From the NCBI GenBank assembly GCA_944363385.1, contig CALVUB010000013.1, forward strand, positions 1-13,045: a stretch of 13,045 bases of DNA, given 5' to 3'. A model generated the notes under the pieces. It was not told where the DNA came from. It made no database searches and saw only the letters and a program-made list of their open reading frames with translations. Made by a program: the position numbers and the translations under genes. This document shows, one piece after another, positions 101-12,475 of the stretch; positions within the stretch are counted from its first letter, which is position 1, and every line of letters starts with the position of its first letter. Source of the stretch: an uncultured Clostridia bacterium (lineage in GTDB: Bacteria; Bacillota; Clostridia; Christensenellales; UBA1242).

Positions 101-3100
101 TTATTTTTTCTTTGATTTGTTTTCTTTTACTTTAGAAACAACAAAGTAGATTACAACGCCAGCCAAGATTGCAACTGAAACGCCAATCAAAACCTGTCCA
201 ACAACTTCTTGAACATTTACTGGAGTTGAAGTTCCGTCATCTCCAACAGTAAAGGAGTATTCTTTTGTCTCGCTTGCATTTCCAGCAATGTCTCTAACAT
301 AAATTGAAACAGTATATTTTCCTTCTTCTTCAATCTTGTAAGAGTATGCATAATTACCTGGAACACTTGAAGTGTTTGAAAGCGTTTTTGTTGTGTTTGT
401 GCTTGTGTTTTTTACTTGAATGACAATCCCTTTAAGAAGGTCATCTCTATCTGTAGTTGTTTCATCTTCAACTGTGATTTTGTCAACTTGAATGTCAATA
501 ACATCACCTACATTGTAAGTTGATTTGATAAACTGATTATTTGTGTTATCAATGTTGATAGTAGGAGGCATAAGGTCGCCTACAGTAAATTCATACTCTT
601 TGGTTGCAGTTGAGCCAACAGGTTGACCTATGATGTTTTTAGCGGCAACGGTGTAAGTGAGTTTGTATCTTCCGTTTGTATTGAGAAGAAGAACAAGGTT
701 GCCTTTTTCATCGTAAGTGAGGTCGCTTTCTTTTACAGAATTCCAATTGTTCATGCTTATTGTTGCAATTGTTCTGGTTGAGCTTCCCGTTGTTACTGAA
801 ATTGAAACAGTTGACTTATCTTTATCAATCTCTCCATTACCTTTAACGTCAGCATTAATTGGTTTTACAATTAAAGATTGTTTTGTATCTGCAAACTTTC
901 GAGTTTCATAGTCTGAGTCGTCCATATAAAGATTTACAGCAACATCACCTGCAGTGTATTCTATTATCTTGCTAGGCGAATGATGCAATTCAACAACTCT
1001 ATTTTCGCCGTCATAAGTTGGAAGCTGGTCGATTGCCATTTCCTTGCCAATTCCAAGTAGGCTTTTGTTTATTTTAAGTTCATATCCAGCCTCAGTTTTT
1101 TCAGCAAAAATATAGTAAGTTTCTCCTGCAGTAGCAGTGCCATCACCAACTTTTTCTGTGCCATCTGCCTTGTAAGCAAGCACCTGTTCACCTTTTGAGT
1201 TTGTAGACATGAAAAGTTTGCCATTTGCTGCGCCTGTGCTGTCAAAATACTCCTCATCAGTTAAATAGCTTATCACAAAAACATCATAGCGAAGTTTATA
1301 AGTTCCTCTTGATTTTGCTGTGAAACTTGTTTCAGAAAGTTCATAATCATTGCTGTCTGCATATATAGCTGAAATTGTGTAATAACTTGCAGTCTTTTCA
1401 CTGTCAAAGTCAGAAATTCCGATATAGCCAACGCCTTCACTATCAGAAACTGAAAGTGTTGGTACTGGAAGTTTTTGAGCCTCGTTGATTACGATTTCTT
1501 TCTTTGTTGAAAAAATATTTTTGATTTCTGGGTCTTCAACATTAGGAATTGCTGTCACATGGTATGAGAAATATGTTGTGATGGAATGTCTGCCTGCATC
1601 ACTTACAGTTACCGCAACAAGATAGTCGCCACCAGTTGAGGCGGTAAATGAACCTGCTTCAAGCACAAATTTTTCAGTGAGAGAATCATAGTAAGTTGAC
1701 ATGTTTGAGCTGTGAACAATTGTTTGAACGCTAGGGTCATCTTCATCAACCTTGTATACCACAACGCCAGCAGTCATATATTGTGGCAAGTTGTCTTGAT
1801 AGTAAAGTGTTGGAAGAACGATTGTTTCGTTGTTTACATAGCCAGTTTCATCAGATTTAACCACTTGATAAAGTGTAGGTGCAACCGTGTCTTCAATGTT
1901 TGAAACATAGCATTGTTTGTCATAGAAGCCCACATTGCCTTGGTCATCAATTGCGTATGAGAAAAATTCGATATAAGCTGCGTCTTGTGGTTTGTTTGCG
2001 AGTCTGATTTCATATTCGTCTTCGCCTTCAAGAATTGTCCAACCAGAAGAAGTCACAACATTGTTTCCGTCAGCTTGGATATACCATTTGTTAGAAGAAA
2101 TACCAATTTTAGAAGCTTCGTTGATAATATATTTAATTTCGCTTCCGATAGGTTTGTCTCCCTCAGAAGTTATTGGCTGTCTTTTTGAGTCAAGATATCT
2201 GTAAGCCGTGTGGATTTCCGCCCTGCCATCGCCACCTGTGTCTGAAACAGTTGGCTCAGTAAGAGTGATGACTTCGTCATCCAGATAAGAAGATTGGAGC
2301 TCAGTTAAATAAAGAATAGATGGTGCGGTTGCATCGTCAGCATTTTCAACAACTTCCACTTCAAATTGGATTTCTGTTGCACTGTTTGTTGAAACATTGT
2401 CGTTTGCAACATAACAGAATCTGTATGTTTGCTCTGAGAAATCTGCATTTGTTGTGTTTGGAGTGATATAAGCATAGCCTTTTTCAAGAAGTTGTTCATC
2501 AGTTAGTTCTGCGCCATATTCACTGCCGGTAACTGGATCAACAGTTCTGCTTTTAGTTACAATAAGATAATGTTTTGTTTGTAACCAATTTTTGATTGTT
2601 GTTTCGTTTTCTTCAGCATCGCCAGAAAGAACGATTCCTTCCAAGGTCATTTGGCGCCTGATTTGATAGTTATCATCATAGATTGACCTATAAAGTCCTT
2701 TCGAGCCATCTTTTTCAGCTTTAAAAATAAGGTTATACTCATCATAAGTTGTAATTTCATAGAGAAGTGAACCTGTTGCAGTTCTAATTCTTCTAGTTAA
2801 GGTTAACTCTTCCTCGTCAACATAGTTGTCACTTCCACCAATTGCATACATAATAATGTTGCGGTTAACAGTTTTAGATTTTAAAAGAGTTTCTGCGCTC
2901 TTGTATGTGCCATCTTTATTTTTAGCATCCTTATTGCCAGCATCATAGATATAAGGTGTAGCTTCAAGTGTGTCAGCAACATCAACGATTGTAAATTCTG
3001 TTGTCGCAGTGTGTCCATAAAAGTCGGTTGCAGTGTAGACAAATCGATAGTCACCAGGTTCAGGCGCTTTGAAGTTGTTATCTTCATCAAGAGTGTTTTC

Positions 3101-4165
3101 AACAGGTTTCCAAACGCCATTTACTCTTCTGTCAACCTTGATTGAATAAGAAATTGAAACAGCTTCATCTGCAGGTTTGTCTGTAGAAGAAGTTGTGGCG
3201 ATAAGTCCTGGAAGTGCTTTTTCAACACCAACAGTAGCTGAAGAAGGGCGAGATGAATCAAGCTCAATCTTCAAGTTATAGCCAGCTTTGTCGTTTGTGT
3301 CAGTGTAATAGCTTTTGTTTACTGTGAAAGATTTTTTTGTTGAAGAAATTTGAACACCATTTTGATAGTATTTGTAAACAATATCAAAACTATATCCATT
3401 TGCTCCTGTAAGTGAAGAACCTTTAATATAGTAATCTCCGTCAGAATTTCTAGCAATCTTGACATCTTCAGAATAAGCTTGGTCAAGAGTGATAAGAAGA
3501 TAATCTTCGCCCAAAGCCTCTTCGGCGTCAATCACAATTTCAAGGTCAGTAATCTCCTTTTCTTGCGCATTGCTGACAGTTGGAACTGGAATAAGAATAT
3601 CTTTTTCATTTGCAATAGAAAGGTCATAAACAGAAGGCACCATTTTTGTATCATTTGAATCAAATTCAAAAGAAACCTCGCTTGTAACACAACGAAGCTC
3701 AAGTTGATAAGAATAATATTTGCCGTCGTCTAAAACAGAATATTCGATAATGTATCGACCTAAGCGGTCTGCGCCAAAAGTTTTCACTCCTTGATATTTT
3801 TCATCGCTTGAGTCATAGACAATTGAATTATCAGCTGCATAATAAGCCACAACCTTTGACTCTTCGATTGATCCTAACACTTCTGAGCCGATAATGTGAG
3901 CAGTTGAGCTTTTGCCAAAATAATGTCCTTGAGGAATAGTAAATTCTCCGCCCTTTTCGACTGTAGTTGGAACGGTGTTTGCGTCAACCTCAATTCTGTT
4001 GGTATTGTCAGAAATCTGCCCGCTGTCTGAAGAAGGCTCTTGTTGCCAAGTTTCCCCAAAAGAAGAGAAGGCGCCAAATGGTAGTGTTGTGCCACACACT
4101 AAAAGTGCAACTCCAAGTGCTGCACCCTTAAAAATACTTTTGTTTTTAATACTTTTTTTGTTCAT
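101..4165 (-). CDS. Large secreted, membrane-anchored Ig-like-domain surface protein
   Basis: Predicted 1354-aa extracellular protein. It begins with a basic n-region (MNKKSIKNKSIFKG) and a hydrophobic stretch at about residues 14-32, typical of a Sec signal peptide. The body is a series of all-beta modules of about 80-150 residues. They repeatedly end in G-x-Y-x-x-x-Y-x-V/A-x-D-like strands and often open with D-x-x-x-P-x-I/L, the pattern of bacterial Ig-like/cadherin-like domains. The end is a single hydrophobic helix at about 1321-1344 plus a KVKENKSKKK tail, so it is probably held in the membrane with the bulk outside. No LPXTG motif is present. The open frame extends 12 codons further upstream, but I chose the ATG at 4165. 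An AAAGGA site lies before it, and the predicted transcription start falls near 4198, leaving no leader for the longer form. The lone Cys in the signal peptide follows LLV, which does not fit a lipobox. Adhesion or an envelope-structural role is inference; no catalytic domain is visible. Confidence 0.92.
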   Translation of the reverse strand: MNKKSIKNKSIFKGAALGVALLVCGTTLPFGAFSSFGETWQQEPSSDSGQISDNTNRIEVDANTVPTTVEKGGEFTIPQGHYFGKSSTAHIIGSEVLGSIEESKVVAYYAADNSIVYDSSDEKYQGVKTFGADRLGRYIIEYSVLDDGKYYSYQLELRCVTSEVSFEFDSNDTKMVPSVYDLSIANEKDILIPVPTVSNAQEKEITDLEIVIDAEEALGEDYLLITLDQAYSEDVKIARNSDGDYYIKGSSLTGANGYSFDIVYKYYQNGVQISSTKKSFTVNKSYYTDTNDKAGYNLKIELDSSRPSSATVGVEKALPGLIATTSSTDKPADEAVSISYSIKVDRRVNGVWKPVENTLDEDNNFKAPEPGDYRFVYTATDFYGHTATTEFTIVDVADTLEATPYIYDAGNKDAKNKDGTYKSAETLLKSKTVNRNIIMYAIGGSDNYVDEEELTLTRRIRTATGSLLYEITTYDEYNLIFKAEKDGSKGLYRSIYDDNYQIRRQMTLEGIVLSGDAEENETTIKNWLQTKHYLIVTKSRTVDPVTGSEYGAELTDEQLLEKGYAYITPNTTNADFSEQTYRFCYVANDNVSTNSATEIQFEVEVVENADDATAPSILYLTELQSSYLDDEVITLTEPTVSDTGGDGRAEIHTAYRYLDSKRQPITSEGDKPIGSEIKYIINEASKIGISSNKWYIQADGNNVVTSSGWTILEGEDEYEIRLANKPQDAAYIEFFSYAIDDQGNVGFYDKQCYVSNIEDTVAPTLYQVVKSDETGYVNNETIVLPTLYYQDNLPQYMTAGVVVYKVDEDDPSVQTIVHSSNMSTYYDSLTEKFVLEAGSFTASTGGDYLVAVTVSDAGRHSITTYFSYHVTAIPNVEDPEIKNIFSTKKEIVINEAQKLPVPTLSVSDSEGVGYIGISDFDSEKTASYYTISAIYADSNDYELSETSFTAKSRGTYKLRYDVFVISYLTDEEYFDSTGAANGKLFMSTNSKGEQVLAYKADGTEKVGDGTATAGETYYIFAEKTEAGYELKINKSLLGIGKEMAIDQLPTYDGENRVVELHHSPSKIIEYTAGDVAVNLYMDDSDYETRKFADTKQSLIVKPINADVKGNGEIDKDKSTVSISVTTGSSTRTIATISMNNWNSVKESDLTYDEKGNLVLLLNTNGRYKLTYTVAAKNIIGQPVGSTATKEYEFTVGDLMPPTINIDNTNNQFIKSTYNVGDVIDIQVDKITVEDETTTDRDDLLKGIVIQVKNTSTNTTKTLSNTSSVPGNYAYSYKIEEEGKYTVSIYVRDIAGNASETKEYSFTVGDDGTSTPVNVQEVVGQVLIGVSVAILAGVVIYFVVSKVKENKSKKK

Positions 4166-4205
4166 CGTAAAAGTCCTTTTAAGCAATTTATTTTGTAACA
4201 ATGTT

Positions 4206-4427: not shown

Positions 4428-4625
4428 ATGAATTTCTTTAACGGAATCCAAAATGGATGCGGTGGTTGTGGAAACTGCTGTGACCCATGCTCACTTATTC
4501 TTTGGATGATAATTTTACAAAGCCTTTGCGGTTGTGGCAACAACAATTGCTGTGGCATAGACGCCTGCACCCTTGTAATTCTTTTACTTTTGTGTGGTGG
4601 CTGTGGCAATGGTTGCGGTAAATAA
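4428..4625 (+). CDS. Small cysteine-rich protein with internal duplication
   Basis: Encodes 65 aa with 13 cysteines (positions 11, 14, 17, 18, 21, 34, 36, 41, 42, 47, 56, 59, 63), many in CG, CC or CGxCG contexts, and many glycines. The ribosome binding site AGGAGG at 4417-4422 is ideal, 5 nt before the ATG, and a strong terminator follows, so this is very likely a real gene. The protein is made of two similar halves. Each has a CC pair, a short gap, a Cys, a hydrophobic run (SLILWMIILQSL in the first, TLVILLLL in the second) and then a CG.CG cluster. There is no signal peptide and no known catalytic motif. Possible roles are metal binding, a disulfide-rich or self-assembling coat component, or a membrane-inserted microprotein; none can be settled from the sequence. 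I faintly recall short high-cysteine proteins of this style being annotated in clostridial genomes. No convincing vegetative promoter is visible upstream (a TAATAT at 4371 has no matching -35 box), which might mean an alternative sigma factor. Confidence 0.85.
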   Translation: MNFFNGIQNGCGGCGNCCDPCSLILWMIILQSLCGCGNNNCCGIDACTLVILLLLCGGCGNGCGK

Positions 4626-4775: not shown

Positions 4776-5159
4776 ATGAAATTTGACGAAGATTGCGAAG
4801 TAATTTGGCACGATAGAAAACGCTTTTTAGGCATGCCACTTTCTTTTACAAGATATTATTTAGTAAAAAAAGACAATGAATGGATAAAAATCTTTAGAGA
4901 TAAAGGGCTTTTGTCTTCAATTATTGATGAAGTAAATGTTTATCGTTGCTTTGACCTTCGTTTGCATGCATCACTTATGGACAAAATTGTTGGAACAGGC
5001 TCAGTTCATATCGACAGTAACGACTCTGAAATGCCTGAGTTTGGGCTTATGCACATCAAAAATCCATATAAAGTCAGAGACCTTCTTTCATCTCTTATTG
5101 AAATTGAAAGAAAGAAGCGCCGTGTTGGCATCACAGAATTTCAAGCACCACAAGATTGA
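4776..5159 (+). CDS. Bacterial PH-domain (bPH_2-like) protein
   Basis: A 127-aa soluble protein that I read as one bacterial pleckstrin-homology-like domain (the PF03703/bPH_2 type). The supporting pattern is an N-terminal 'IWHDRKR...SFTRYYL' strand pair, a 'VNVYRCFDLRLHASLMDKIVGTGSVHI' core resembling the usual 'YRI.D....L..KIFG.GTI.V', and a terminal 'HIKNPYKVRDLLSSLIE' strand and helix. It has no membrane segments, unlike the YdbS/YdbT members. The frame can start at a TTG at 4764, but that codon sits just before the GGAGG at 4766-4770, so the ATG at 4776 is the start. It has its own promoter and ends at a shared terminator, so it is monocistronic. The stop is TGA, which argues for the standard code. 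The binding partner is unknown; phosphoinositide binding should not be assumed for bacterial members. Confidence 0.85.
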   Translation: MKFDEDCEVIWHDRKRFLGMPLSFTRYYLVKKDNEWIKIFRDKGLLSSIIDEVNVYRCFDLRLHASLMDKIVGTGSVHIDSNDSEMPEFGLMHIKNPYKVRDLLSSLIEIERKKRRVGITEFQAPQD

Positions 5160-5282: not shown

Positions 5283-6620
5283 CTAATCACTTTGCTCTTC
5301 ATCAAGATTTTCTTCAGGTTTTTCTTCTGATTTTTCTTCAGATTTTTCAAAAAGCGACTGTGCTTGTTTTAGCAAACTTTGATAATTAGGGTCGGCTACT
5401 TTTTCCGAATATTGCTCTTTCTTCTCGTCAATAATTTTCTTAATATACTCCATTTCGCTTCTTAATGCTTCAACCTTATTACTCTTTGCTTCTTCAACTT
5501 CTTTTTCATAATAGTTCAAAACAATTGCTTTAAGCTTGTTCACAAAGTCATCAGAAAACCTAATTGCTGGAATGCCAACGATTGACTTCACATTATCTTT
5601 AGCCTCTTGTAAATAGTCAACATCTTCCATTATTTGATTATTTCTTTTAATTCTCTCAAAATTCTTATTGATCGTATATTCTTGCTCACCTTTTTTTACT
5701 TTAGCAAAACCTTCGCTGAAAGCATATACCTTATCATACCCTTCGCCATGTAGTTTGAAGTCTTTATCGTCAACAAAATACCATTTGCCAGCTTTCTTTG
5801 CTCCAGCAAAACCTTCGCTGAAAGCATATACCTCATCATACCCTTCGCCATGTAGTTTGAAGTCTTTATCGTCAACAAAATACCATTTGCCAGCTTTCTT
5901 TGCTCCAGCAAAACCTTCTTCGAAATCATCTATATAGTCATATCCTTCGCCATGAAGCTTAAAATCTTCATCTATGAAATAATATTGGTCATTCTCATAT
6001 ACAACATTAAAGCCTTCTCTATACCCGCTATATTTATAAAGATGTGATGTGCCTGTTTTCTTAATTTCTTCTCGATTTACATAATACCCTTTGCCATCTT
6101 TTTTTACTACAGTAAAACCTCCACTGAAAAAATATGCCTCATCATAACCTTCACCATGTAGCTTGAAATCTTCATCTATGAAATAATATTTTCCATTCTC
6201 ATAAACAACATTAAAGCCTTCTCTATACTCGTCATATTTATAATCATGCGAAGAGCCTGTTTTTCTCAATTCTTTTATATTTATATACCAGCAATTCTCT
6301 CTGTGTTCCAAAAAGGGTTTTGTAGCAACCCAGTCGAATATAGGAGCAACATCCCCAGTTCCGCATAGTGATTGCATATGTGCATTTATGTCATAAAGTT
6401 TAAAACCATTGTCAACGTCAACCAAATACCAGTAGCCAGTAATCTCGTCACCTTTTCTTACCAGAGCAAAACCTTCAACAACTGTAAGTCGTTTTCTTCC
6501 CATTTTCTCTCTGTAAAAATAACAATTATCATAACCTTCACCATAAATTTTGCCGTCAGAGCCTTTGAAATAATATTTTCTTATTCCGCCAAATTCTCTT
6601 TTTACCACTTTAAATTCCAT
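5283..6620 (-). CDS. WG-repeat protein with coiled-coil and acidic C-terminus
   Basis: A 445-aa protein. Residues about 1-325 are repeated modules of 33-35 aa of the form EGF-x5-G-K-W/Y-Y-F-V/I-D-x2-FKLHGEGYD-x5-F, the signature of the WG/beta-repeat family (PF14903), thought to form propeller-like beta sheets. Two neighbouring units (about residues 238-305) are almost identical. Residues about 335-425 are helix-rich with heptad character (EVEEAKSNKVEALRSEMEY and following). The last 20 residues are acidic and repetitive (EKSEEK, EKPEEN). No signal peptide or membrane segment is seen, so it is probably cytoplasmic. The start ATG at 6620 has a perfect AGGAGG (6626-6631) 5 nt away. The gene stands alone, with its own unusual promoter and a bidirectional terminator at the end. 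WG-repeat proteins have no single known function; a protein-interaction scaffold is a reasonable inference. Confidence 0.93.
   Translation of the reverse strand: MEFKVVKREFGGIRKYYFKGSDGKIYGEGYDNCYFYREKMGRKRLTVVEGFALVRKGDEITGYWYLVDVDNGFKLYDINAHMQSLCGTGDVAPIFDWVATKPFLEHRENCWYINIKELRKTGSSHDYKYDEYREGFNVVYENGKYYFIDEDFKLHGEGYDEAYFFSGGFTVVKKDGKGYYVNREEIKKTGTSHLYKYSGYREGFNVVYENDQYYFIDEDFKLHGEGYDYIDDFEEGFAGAKKAGKWYFVDDKDFKLHGEGYDEVYAFSEGFAGAKKAGKWYFVDDKDFKLHGEGYDKVYAFSEGFAKVKKGEQEYTINKNFERIKRNNQIMEDVDYLQEAKDNVKSIVGIPAIRFSDDFVNKLKAIVLNYYEKEVEEAKSNKVEALRSEMEYIKKIIDEKKEQYSEKVADPNYQSLLKQAQSLFEKSEEKSEEKPEENLDEEQSD
5704..5907 (-). repeat. 102-bp tandem coding repeat, two near-identical copies
   Basis: Copies 5704-5805 and 5806-5907 differ at a single base (T at 5732, C at 5834), which changes Lys to Glu in the GYD-K/E-VYAFS segment. 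Each copy encodes one 34-aa WG-repeat unit, so gain or loss of a copy keeps the frame. This near-identity, against clearly diverged flanking units, implies a recent duplication or ongoing gene conversion. Confidence 0.95.
5967..6264 (-). repeat. Older 204-bp higher-order repeat in the WG gene
   Basis: The stretch around 5967-6060 recurs around 6171-6264 at roughly 85% identity, displaced by exactly 204 bp (two 34-codon units). It encodes REGFNVVYEN-x-x-YYFIDEDF in each copy, and the partner module between is of the GTSHLYKY/GSSHDYKY type. The array therefore grew at least once by two-unit steps before the recent single-unit duplication nearby. Confidence 0.85.
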
Positions 6621-6630
6621 TTTCTCCTCC

Positions 6631-6783
6631 TTTTGTGGAAAAGTTTTGTGGATAACTTTTCCCTTTCAATCAATGATAATTCTATTATACCCCCCCCCGA
6701 AATTTTGTCAAGGGGTTTTGCGAAATTTGTGTAAAAAACTTTTTTTGAGAGGTTTTTAAAAATCGCTTTTGTGGATAACTTTT
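6631..6783 (-). repeat. Three 17-bp direct repeats with DnaA-box cores around the WG-gene promoter
   Basis: TTTTGTGGATAACTTTT occurs exactly at 6644-6660 and 6767-6783. A two-mismatch copy (TTTTGTGGAAAAGTTTT) is at 6631-6647, overlapping the second copy by 4 bp. On the minus strand the cores read TTATCCACA, TTATCCACA and TTTTCCACA, matching the DnaA-box consensus TTWTNCACA. A further weaker match, TTTTACACA, lies at 6729-6737. All share one orientation. Two sites fall in the predicted 5' leader, between the transcription start and the ribosome binding site, and two fall upstream of the -35 box. Confidence 0.8.
6684..6711 (-). promoter_or_regulatory. Consensus promoter of the WG gene with a G9 tract in its spacer
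   Basis: On the minus strand, perfect TTGACA (6706-6711) and perfect TATAAT (6684-6689) are 16 bp apart. The spacer includes nine consecutive Gs directly before the -10 box (plus-strand C run 6690-6698). Initiation is expected near 6677, giving a leader of about 57 nt. Spacer length would change with every base gained or lost in the tract. Confidence 0.82.
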
Positions 6784-6789
6784 TGTGTG

Positions 6790-6824
6790 AAAAATAAAAA
6801 ATCATAGCCTTTTGTTGACTATGA
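6790..6824 (-). terminator. Terminator of the sepF-lspA-rluD operon
   Basis: On the minus strand, TCATAGTC (6817-6824) pairs with GGCTATGA (6802-6809), including one T-G wobble, around a 7-nt loop, and is followed by a T-rich tract (6791-6801). The stem begins immediately after the stop codon of the pseudouridine synthase gene. Confidence 0.8.
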
Positions 6825-7715
6825 CTATTTTATTTTCTCGATATAATTTTGAAAATAGTCTGGCAGAGCAATTTCAAATTGCATAAGTTTGCCAGTGCGA
6901 GGATGAACAAATTGTATAAAATATGAATGCAGAAGTTGCCCTTTCAAATTTTTATCTGGCTTTCCGTAAACATTGTCGCCAACAATTGAATGCCCAAGCC
7001 ATTTGCAATGCACTCTGATTTGATGAGTTCTGCCCGTTTGCAGAGAAAATTCCACCAAACTTTTGTTCTTAAATTCCTTTAGCACCTTAAAATCTGTAAT
7101 TGCTTTCTTGCCTGAAGAAGAGACTGCATATTTTTTGCGATCAGACCGACTTCGCTCCAAAAAAGTTTCAATATGCCCTTCCTTTTCTTTAAAAATTCCT
7201 TCACATAAAGCCATGTATTTACGCTTACATGTTTTATTTTTAATTTGCTCGGCAAGCGAAACATGCGCCAAATCATTTTTTGCCACAACCATAAGTCCAG
7301 AGGTGTTTTTATCAAGCCTATGCACAATGCCGGGTCTGAGAACGCCATTGATACCGCTAAGGTCTTTCACTCTGTCAAGCAGTCCATTGACGAGAGTTCC
7401 GCTTTTTGTGGAAGAACAAGGATGCACCACCAAGCCTTGTGGTTTGTTTACCACAATCAGGTCAGTGTCTTCATAAACAATTTCAAAGTCAATTTTTTCA
7501 GCCTCCGCTTCAAGAGGTTTGGGTTGTTCAAACTCGAAAGTCACTTTTTGACCAAGCTTAACCTTCTCGCCCGCTTTAACTTTTTTACCATTAAGCAAAA
7601 TTTTGCCTTCATTGATAAGATTTTTTATATGAGAGCGCGACAAAGCAGGTTGATTTGCATTAAAAAGCACATCAAGCCTTTCTCCTTCTTGGTTTACAAT
7701 AAATTCACCCTTCAA
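6825..7715 (-). CDS. rluD: RluA/RluD-family 23S rRNA pseudouridine synthase
   Basis: A 296-aa enzyme that isomerises specific uridines in RNA to pseudouridine. An N-terminal S4 RNA-binding domain (about residues 12-65, with SRSHIKNLINEGKILLNGKKVK) is followed by the catalytic domain, with family motif RPGIVHRLDKNTSG at 127-140. Asp135 is the expected catalytic residue. A later 'LQTGRTHQIRVH' motif is the second hallmark. Length and domain order are those of RluD-type members acting on the large subunit; the exact target uridines cannot be told, and RluC/YlyB-like naming is possible. The start is a TTG at 7715, with an AGAGAGG site upstream and no nearby in-frame ATG. It follows lspA by 26 bp, an arrangement common in Bacillota, and is the last gene of its operon. 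Confidence 0.93.
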   Translation of the reverse strand: MKGEFIVNQEGERLDVLFNANQPALSRSHIKNLINEGKILLNGKKVKAGEKVKLGQKVTFEFEQPKPLEAEAEKIDFEIVYEDTDLIVVNKPQGLVVHPCSSTKSGTLVNGLLDRVKDLSGINGVLRPGIVHRLDKNTSGLMVVAKNDLAHVSLAEQIKNKTCKRKYMALCEGIFKEKEGHIETFLERSRSDRKKYAVSSSGKKAITDFKVLKEFKNKSLVEFSLQTGRTHQIRVHCKWLGHSIVGDNVYGKPDKNLKGQLLHSYFIQFVHPRTGKLMQFEIALPDYFQNYIEKIK

Positions 7716-10396: not shown

Positions 10397-12475
10397 TTAT
10401 TGTTTGCTTTTTGCTCTCTCACCTATAATGTTTTGAGCAATAGATTTTGGAACTTCTTGATATTTAAGAGGTTCCATAACATAATTTCCTCTGCCCTGAG
10501 TTTGAGAACGAAGGTCGGTTGCATAACCAAACATCTCAGCAAGAGGCACTTCTGCATTGACAATTTGAATGCCAGCAGAAGATTCTGTCCCAGTAAGCAT
10601 ACCTCTTCTTGAAGTAAGGTTGCCCATAACAGTTCCAAGATATTCATCAGGCACTTCAACAGAAACCTTCATGATAGGTTCAAGAAGCACTGGGTCTGCA
10701 TTTCTTGCGCCTTCTTGGAAAGCCATAGATCCTGCAATCTTGAAGGCCATTTCAGAAGAGTCAACTTCGTGATAAGAACCATCCACCAAAGTAACCTTAA
10801 AGTCAACTGTTTCATAACCAGCAAGCACACCATTCATTCTGGCTTCATTGATACCGTTGTTGATTGGTTGGATATATTCTTTAGGAACAGATCCGCCAAC
10901 AGTTTTATCCACAAACTGATAGCCCTCACCAGGAGCGAGAGGCTCCATTTCAATGATACAGTGACCATATTGACCTTTACCACCAGACTGCCTGATGAAT
11001 TTTCCTTCAGCCCTAACAGCTTTCTTGATAGCTTCACGATAGCTAACTTGTGGTTTACCAACAGTAGCTTCAACTTTAAACTCTCTAAGAAGTCTGTCGA
11101 CAATGATTTCAAGGTGAAGTTCGCCCATACCAGCGATCAAAGTTTGACCAGTTTCTTGATTGGTTGCAACTCTAAACGAAGGATCTTCACGAGAAAGTTT
11201 TGCAAGAGCGAGAGCCATTTTTTCTTGCATGTCTTTTGTTTTAGGCTCAATGGCAAGTTGAATAACAGGTTCTGGAAATTCCATGCTTTCAAGTTGGATT
11301 GGATGCTTTTCATCACAGAGAGTGTGACCTGTGATAGTATCTTTAAGTCCAACAATAGCAGCAATATCACCAGCTGAAACTTCGGTGATTTCCTGTCTGT
11401 TGTTTGCGTGCATTCTGATAAGTCTTCCAACTCTTTCAGTTTTTCCTGTGTTTGAGTTGTAAACATAAGAGCCTGCGGTAAGTTTTCCACTGTAAACGCG
11501 GAAGAAAGTAAGACCACCAACATAAGGGTCGGTCATAATTTTGAAGGCAAGTCCAGCAAGTGGAGCATTTTCATCAGGTGCTCTATCTTCTTCTTTGCCA
11601 GTGTCTGGATTGATACCCTTTATGTTTTCAATGTCAAGAGGGCTTGGCAAATATTCAACCATTGCATCAAGAAGCATTTGAACGCCTTTGTTTTTGTAAG
11701 ACGACCCACAAAGAACTGGTGTTAAAGTTTTTGCAATTGTTGCTTTTCTGATAGCTTTTTTAAGTTCCTCAATTGAAATTTCTTCGCCTTCAAAGTATCT
11801 TTCAAGAAGAGCGTCATCAGTTTCAACAATTTTTTCAATCATTTTGTCATGTTCTTGTTGCGCTCTATCTTTAAGCTCTGCAGGGATGTCAACAATTTCA
11901 ATTTGAGTTCCCATATCGTCTTTATAAATCTCAGCCTTCATTGTAAGCAGGTCGATAATACCTGAGAAGGTATCAGCCTCACCAATTGGCATTTGGATTG
12001 GCAATGGGTTTGTTTTAAGTCTTCTTTGAATAGACTCAACACAACCAAAGAAATCGGCTGCATCTCTGTCCATTTTGTTTACATATATAATAGTTGGCAC
12101 TTTATATTTTGTAGCTTGACGCCAAACAGTCTCGGTTTGAGGTTGAACTTTATCACGAGCAGAAAGCACAAGCACAGAGCCGTCAAGCACTTTGAGTGAA
12201 CGCTCAACTTCAACTGTAAAGTCAACGTGTCCTGGAGTGTCGATTATATTGATTTTATGACCTTTCCAAGAACAAGTTGTGCAGGCTGAAGTGATTGTGA
12301 TGCCACGCTCTTGTTCTTGAGCCATCCAGTCCATGGTTGCAGCGCCATCGTGAACTTCGCCAATCTTGTGACTTTTGCCGGTGTAATACAAAATACGCTC
12401 AGTTGTTGTGGTTTTCCCAGCATCAATGTGAGCCATAATGCCGACATTTCTAGTAAGTTCTAGATTGTTTGCCAT
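10397..12475 (-). CDS. fusA: Translation elongation factor G
   Basis: A 692-aa ribosomal translocase GTPase of normal length. The G domain contains AHIDAGKT (15-22), RGITI (58-62), DTPGH (79-83) and NKMD (133-136). The rest follows the five-domain plan, ending with the domain IV loop '[21 protein letters not shown]' and domain V '[13 protein letters not shown]'. The segment after beta-strand 4 reads [14 protein letters not shown], where DK replaces the more common GG. The start ATG at 12475 has AAGGAG a few bases upstream. It lies 112 bp after rpsG and before tuf, as in most Bacillota str operons. Its length, motifs and location favour true EF-G over a TetM-like ribosomal protection protein. 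Confidence 0.98.

Follow-up and report, generated by a model that had tools for sequence, protein, structure and literature searches.

The switching of a promoter by slippage within its spacer is a known principle of phase variation. In Neisseria meningitidis, homopolymers lie in the spacers of the porA, fetA and opc promoters (PMC2791445), and lengthening of the opc poly-C tract from C11 to C12 raises expression (PMC3447861). In Campylobacter jejuni, biases in slippage keep the tracts for the most part at lengths of G9 and G10; in Campylobacter, such tracts occur at many loci per genome, mostly within reading frames and in a minority of cases between genes (PMC8355987). Slippage of a G tract connected with the sortase-dependent pili of Bifidobacterium breve has been measured in populations, and further tracts in promoter spacers are mentioned (PMC9187656). 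In a review, phase variation in Clostridia is described through the invertible promoters of C. difficile (PMC11868660).

The locus considered here lies in a 13,045-base stretch of DNA from an uncultured Clostridia bacterium (hereafter, the window), where nine consecutive G stand in the spacer of a promoter upstream of a WG-repeat protein gene. The meningococcal promoters are those of a Gram-negative pathogen, whereas the present ones belong to uncultured bacteria with metagenome-assembled Clostridia genomes as named relatives, use both bases, and reach nine one-base-type tract promoters in a single genome (G065, the highest count per genome). The likeness to Campylobacter lies in tract length and in the number of loci per genome; however, many of the tracts described here sit in promoter spacers rather than in reading frames. 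Nearly every genome of the genus encodes MutS and MutL, whereas Campylobacter is not known to have MutS-type repair. B. breve is likewise a Gram-positive gut commensal with a G-tract switch, although it belongs to a different phylum from Clostridia, and its switch is of the reading-frame type, within a pilin gene. What lacks a literature match is not the principle but its extent in the order and the unit formed with WG and BspA genes: a literature search with partial coverage returned, among the matches listed, no account of spacer tracts in these Clostridia and none of phase-variable WG genes.

Slipped-strand phase variation through promoter spacing, on the opc/porA/fetA principle, is probably the best explanation of the G9 tract, and we hold it with reasonable confidence. 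This interpretation, which a sequence-only reading of the window had proposed, is supported by an architecture that recurs throughout genus and order while a reversed pattern has hardly any matches, by clean differences in tract length between some near-identical copies, and by an enrichment of N-terminally hydrophobic products among the downstream genes.

The G9 promoter and its surroundings

The sequence-only reading described exact TTGACA and TATAAT boxes 16 bp apart, nine uninterrupted G touching the -10 box, and a great rarity of long G runs in this DNA, and each of these points holds. The -35 box (6706..6711) and the -10 box (6684..6689) are exact consensus hexamers on the minus strand. 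The G9 tract, established by run count and the genus scan, abuts the -10 box at 6690..6698 on the same strand, the plus strand reading C9. From 6711 to 6684, the minus strand is TTGACA-AAATTTCGGGGGGGGG-TATAAT, where the 16-nt spacer AAATTTCGGGGGGGGG consists of AAATTTC followed by G9. An uninterrupted homopolymer of the opc/porA/fetA type is therefore present between the two boxes, and a G/C run of at least six bases occurs only once in the 13,045 bases. A consensus scan of the window returns the G9 promoter alone as a 12-of-12 promoter-like match. It is also the sole match to TTGACA-N16-TATAAT with at most one mismatch, a pattern found on average 0.15 times per shuffled window (at least one match in 29 of 200 shuffles); for GGGGGGGG, 0.06 occurrences are expected per shuffled window. 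A chance origin of the tract promoter is ruled out by these shuffles together with the reversed-pattern controls given below.

Between the -10 box and the gene lies a 5' leader (6621..6683, minus strand), delineated by pattern recurrence and folding, which comprises a TATCATTGATTG block, a GGAAAAGTT/AACTTTTCC hairpin and a GGAGG ribosome site. The hairpin is only mildly stable (fold z -1.3, a weak value), and an Rfam search of the window returned no RNA element at the gathering threshold. The start codon of the WG gene follows 63 nt past the -10 box, behind this strong ribosome site. The gene (5283..6620, minus strand) encodes a 445-aa protein that matches the WG_beta_rep family (PF14903, E 1.8e-14; 53.9 bits against a curated cut-off of 25.6). 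Its upstream neighbour is an rluD-like pseudouridine synthase gene (6825..7715, minus strand; PF00849, E 3.2e-36), and on the other side stands a bPH_2 domain gene (4776..5159, plus strand; 23.6 bits, cut-off 22). Because a terminator-like hairpin (6800..6826, minus strand; consensus scan only) ends the rluD gene and may separate the WG gene from the genes upstream, the WG gene probably has its own promoter.

The WG protein has no N-terminal hydrophobic segment and is thus no obvious surface antigen. A protein search yielded 71 homologues, the few given names of which are uninformative on function. The WG protein and two leucine-rich repeat (LRR) proteins have no match among the PADLOC anti-phage families, three proteins tried against NCBIfam gave no match, and the best sequence match of the WG protein to a solved structure has an E-value of only 0.99.

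Other features of the window deserve mention in their own right. Three DnaA-box-like motifs (TTATCCACA twice, TTTTCCACA once) lie on the minus strand at 6634-6655 and 6770-6778, that is, within 145 bases around the promoter, where base composition predicts about 0.33 in the whole window; two of them overlap the leader hairpin region, and a further such motif lies at 10905. A 65-aa Cys/Gly-rich protein without a Pfam family is encoded beside bPH_2 (4428-4625, plus strand), with same-locus matches in two relatives (G021 and G025) and a 16-residue match in a third (G030). A 1355-aa protein (101-4168, minus strand) has hydrophobic stretches at both ends, by eye, and a weak, below-cut-off match to the Ig-like family Big_13; the start of its gene is without a G/C run of six or more.

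Tract promoters in the genome, genus and order

The window's own genome, labelled G000 within a set of 112 genus genomes in which G021 is a close relative, is a 764-kb draft in 99 contigs, 73% complete. It holds eight G/C runs of at least seven bases, six of exactly nine and two of exactly eight, so that run lengths display an excess at nine instead of a steady fall-off with length. Three of the six nines, the window's among them, lie in promoter-like spacers and three in reading frames that are open at nine. A second such spacer (contig C26) combines the imperfect boxes TTGAAA and TAATAT around G9 before a gene for an N-terminally hydrophobic protein, and a third (contig C69) combines TTGCAT, C9 and TATAAT before a BspA-type LRR gene. 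The in-frame nines belong to one Acyl_transf_3 protein and two GLUG-repeat proteins, in which the tract falls, by eye, just past the N-terminal hydrophobic stretch. At one of the two 8-G runs (L278:493-1006, contig C23), an HD-domain gene is split between frames, which reflects either a phase-OFF state or an assembly error; the second lies, by eye, inside a terminator-like stem.

Across the genus, G tracts between TTG and TATAAT occur at 73 places in 28 of the 112 genomes, against three matches to the reversed pattern. C tracts in the same position account for 99 rows (96 distinct ends) in 39 genomes, with none in the reversed control, and 53 genomes carry a tract promoter of one or the other base. 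An order-wide scan that required TTGACA and eight G found 96 places in 54 of 396 genomes and 23 of 142 genera; no reversed-pattern match stood among the matches listed. Promoters of this build are not confined to WG genes, and the window's belongs to a large set extending through the genus and order. This breadth bears on the reading of the G9 count as an assembly or sequencing artefact, in which a shorter or mixed true locus was collapsed to nine. Homopolymers are error-prone and the draft is incomplete and fragmented, but errors that could alter a count are unlikely to create a tract, let alone one at the promoter position in 53 separate genomes, and we regard an artefact as very improbable.

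In named public genomes, at least 119 stretches carry the promoter pattern. The 80 of these that were listed include many metagenome-assembled genomes of uncultured Clostridia and Bacilli, as well as Streptobacillus, Helicobacter and Chloroflexi; some of the matches in unrelated groups may have arisen by chance. Individual records with the pattern belong to Streptobacillus notomytis, Helicobacter, Candidatus Ancillula and Selenomonadaceae (L134, L142, L083 and L084), where it reflects either independent origins or chance.

Orthologous genes can lie behind tracts of either base. A lipoprotein family has 41 matches in 33 of the 112 genomes, and 11 of the 20 upstream regions inspected (one at a contig end) contain a G/C run of at least seven: C7-C10 in eight species and G8 in three (G015, G042 and G034), where no exact TATAAT follows the tract. 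For a family of small membrane proteins, with 31 matches in 27 of the 112 genomes, 11 of the 27 upstream regions inspected have a tract, nine of G and two of C. These counts are lower bounds, since several of the inspected regions begin within the coding sequence, so that the promoter may lie outside them. BspA genes stand behind C9 in G000 and behind G8 in G021.

The products downstream were examined for 103 tract promoters (72 G and 31 C, after a stricter -35 pattern had excluded two of 74 G promoters). A downstream gene could be called for 87; of the other 16, 11 are no more than 300 nt from the end of their contig. Of the 87 gene products, 59 have a hydrophobic segment at the N-terminus, compared with 47 of 186 background reading frames from the same stretches (Fisher p 2.7e-11), with paralogues counted separately and a few genes mis-chosen by the caller, among them the G070 WG gene. 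The enrichment persists for genes of at least 100 aa (49/71, p 1.8e-10) and is less marked behind C tracts (11/29) than behind G tracts (48/58). Pfam was run on 71 of 74 non-redundant proteins, a likely mis-call, a near-duplicate and one more being omitted. Among the 25 of 46 families listed are BspA LRR (seven), Listeria-Bacteroides repeat (six), DUF6273 (four), ABC transporter (three), GLUG (two) and InlB-type repeat (two), with single glycosyltransferase and methyltransferase matches.

MutS is found in 107 and MutL in 108 of the 112 genus genomes, so the lineage is not repair-deficient, which counts against the slippage reading, and slippage cannot be put down to missing mismatch repair. 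In the incomplete G000 draft itself, the search recovered no MutL.

Tract length, spacer length and promoter state

Tract lengths were compared between close copies among 101 tract promoters, made up of the G-stretch promoters and the C promoters in 30 loci, which cover only about a third of the C places. A change was taken as clean when the five bases before the tract and everything from the tract to the -10 box were identical. The lengths are those of assembly consensus sequences from one genome per species, and annotated G-tract lengths can deviate from real ones, according to the B. breve report (PMC9187656). The closest copy of the window locus itself is only about 82% identical. In G030, two loci with unrelated upstream DNA share some 205 bases, spanning the promoter and gene start, that differ only in carrying G8 or G9.

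Among the 17 pairs whose flanks match at 90% identity or more, 13 differ in their longest run, five of them cleanly. All five are G pairs, of which eight of 11 differ in run length; the clean changes come from G021, G030 and G065 only, and the pairs share members and are not independent. In three close G pairs, the tract or its surroundings also carry substituted or additional bases. The same holds for the six C pairs, none of which changes cleanly: they differ by a base within the tract or at its border. The flanks of the 17 pairs hold 20 indel events in 3,308 columns; set against 17 tracts of about nine bases, clean tract changes are several-fold commoner per base than flank indels. In the range of 75-90% identity, the run differs in 21 of 29 pairs (23 of 32 before three rows aligned over 26 columns were dropped), six of them cleanly; with 206 indel events in 5,793 flank columns, the tracts show no excess there.

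These data bear on two further explanations. If the G/C tract were a fixed-length operator for a DNA-binding regulator with a wide regulon, its length would be set by binding. The excess at nine would then mirror the binding site, and both orientations would be allowed, since a double-stranded G site reads C on the other strand. Tract lengths do cluster at eight to ten, and nine is the mode (G promoters, 24 of 53; C promoters, 16 of 25). In G086, G10 stands in each of the seven G-tract promoters that were found, and most of the compared pairs show no clean length change. An operator of this kind is nevertheless unlikely, given the near-identical copies that differ cleanly in length, the exact 9-G runs that also occur within open reading frames, and tracts that do not keep to one place in the spacer, since one set abuts the -10 box and another lies closer to the -35 box. 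A neutral or decaying mutational product, without effect on expression and pure only by accident, would suit the several tracts that differ by substitution rather than length. It would also suit the persistence of interrupted tracts: GGTGGGGTG, with a spacer of 16, is present in both the WG paralogue on contig C25 of G000 and its G021 orthologue, which are 90.6% identical over 3 kb. That some WG relatives have no tract or an interrupted one counts against slippage. A neutral product is nevertheless improbable, and more so than an operator, against the excess over reversed-pattern controls, the recurrence of either base upstream of orthologous genes, and the enrichment for hydrophobic N-termini.

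The spacing of the boxes informs the likely state of the promoter. The sequence-only reading took 17 bp as optimal and G9 as suboptimal, a claim not upheld by a survey of about 499 kb of stretches (some overlapping, duplicates removed), in which tract-free TTGACA/TATAAT pairs peak equally at spacers of 16 and 17 (10 of 30 each). Tract-free or interrupted relatives of the window promoter with exact hexamers, with orthologues counted once, have a spacer of 16 in four of five cases and of 15 in one. Given this peak and these relatives, the assembled G9 state, with its 16-nt spacer, is probably ON or near-ON. G-tract spacers are bimodal, with 28 of 53 at 15-16, five at 17-18 (two of them at 17) and 17 at 19-20, and 18 of 25 C-tract spacers are 15-16; this spread would fit promoters of which some are strong, some weak and some OFF. 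The tendency of C. jejuni tracts to be held at G9 and G10 fits the peak at nine seen here.

Under phase variation by spacer slippage, the G9 tract would act as a contingency locus. DNA polymerase would slip on the homopolymer during replication, and the gain or loss of a G would lengthen or shorten the distance between the -35 and -10 boxes, altering the start of WG-gene transcription by the housekeeping sigma factor; a change of one or two G could make the promoter stronger or weaker. The window's tract would be one member of a genome-wide repertoire of promoter-like spacers and of coding tracts in which slippage would shift the frame, and this repertoire would in turn be part of a system across the genus and order. 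We infer slippage within living populations, the direction of any change in expression, and a benefit in the form of bet-hedging against immunity, phage or niche change.

Repeat-carrying units and their promoter-leader module

The leader pattern occurs at 11 places, including the window, in four of the 112 genomes; G000 is among them, and six of the places are in G021. The interval between rluD and the bPH gene differs between relatives. In G000 it holds one G9-WG unit. In G021 it holds a BspA unit, whose tract is interrupted, beside a short WG unit that lacks a tract; in G025, two tract-free WG units and a duplicated rluD end. In G030, rluD and the bPH_2 gene are adjacent, with no insert. The duplicated 3' piece of rluD in G025 (L324, contig C3, 6903-7091) lies between the two WG genes, as expected from tandem duplication of the WG unit.

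Within this interval, the gene that follows the promoter-leader module is a WG gene in G000 but a BspA gene in G021, which points to units that were exchanged or duplicated. A module common to different genes and an interval occupied by different units would also be compatible with an invertible or recombining promoter, in which site-specific recombination does the switching and the tract is a by-product. However, within 600 bases only one pair of inverted sequences encloses the promoter, and its 21 nt are just 76% complementary; strong flanking inverted repeats are absent, and an invertible promoter is accordingly rejected; site-specific recombination as the switch has, in our estimate, hardly any likelihood.

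The WG protein consists of WG repeats followed by a C-terminal domain at about residues 325-445. Unlike the repeats, which place the protein in the WG_beta_rep family, this domain recurs in two BspA-type LRR proteins of G021 behind the same promoter module (E 1e-11 and 6e-10 in a profile search, with E-values here and below computed for a set of only 13 sequences). Related promoters precede six other WG proteins, of which four have the domain (E 4e-15 to 3e-9); the count is five of seven if the C25 orthologue is included. The protein on contig C20 of G021 gives a weak match to the profile (E 0.006), and the matches of the short G021 WG, G070 WG, G029 WG and C69 LRR proteins do not reach significance. 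Since promoter and C-terminal domain can stay constant while the repeats differ, the leader module may be read as a cassette in which a constant promoter and protein tail accompany swappable repeats. Five leader-module proteins (at loci L321 on G021:C2, L206, L327 and L026) end in a similar acidic tail near DDDGKxE, and the 3' untranslated regions of the two units on G021:C2 are alike by eye; these resemblances suggest duplication or gene conversion.

A broader proposal, which is conceivable though we lean slightly against it, joins a general G/C-spacer switch for large repertoires of surface and other proteins, acting throughout this order of uncultured gut Clostridia, to a portable repeat-carrying unit in the window's lineage. 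The unit would have a constant promoter, leader and C-terminal domain and interchangeable WG or leucine-rich repeats; slippage would pick the repeat protein that is made, and recombination would pick the repeats that it carries. If slippage switches operate so widely in these bacteria, many members of the animal gut community would hold a phenotypic diversity that is invisible to one genome per species but open to measurement through G counts in metagenome reads that already exist. The tract promoters would also provide a genome-wide list of candidate surface proteins under selection by host or phage.
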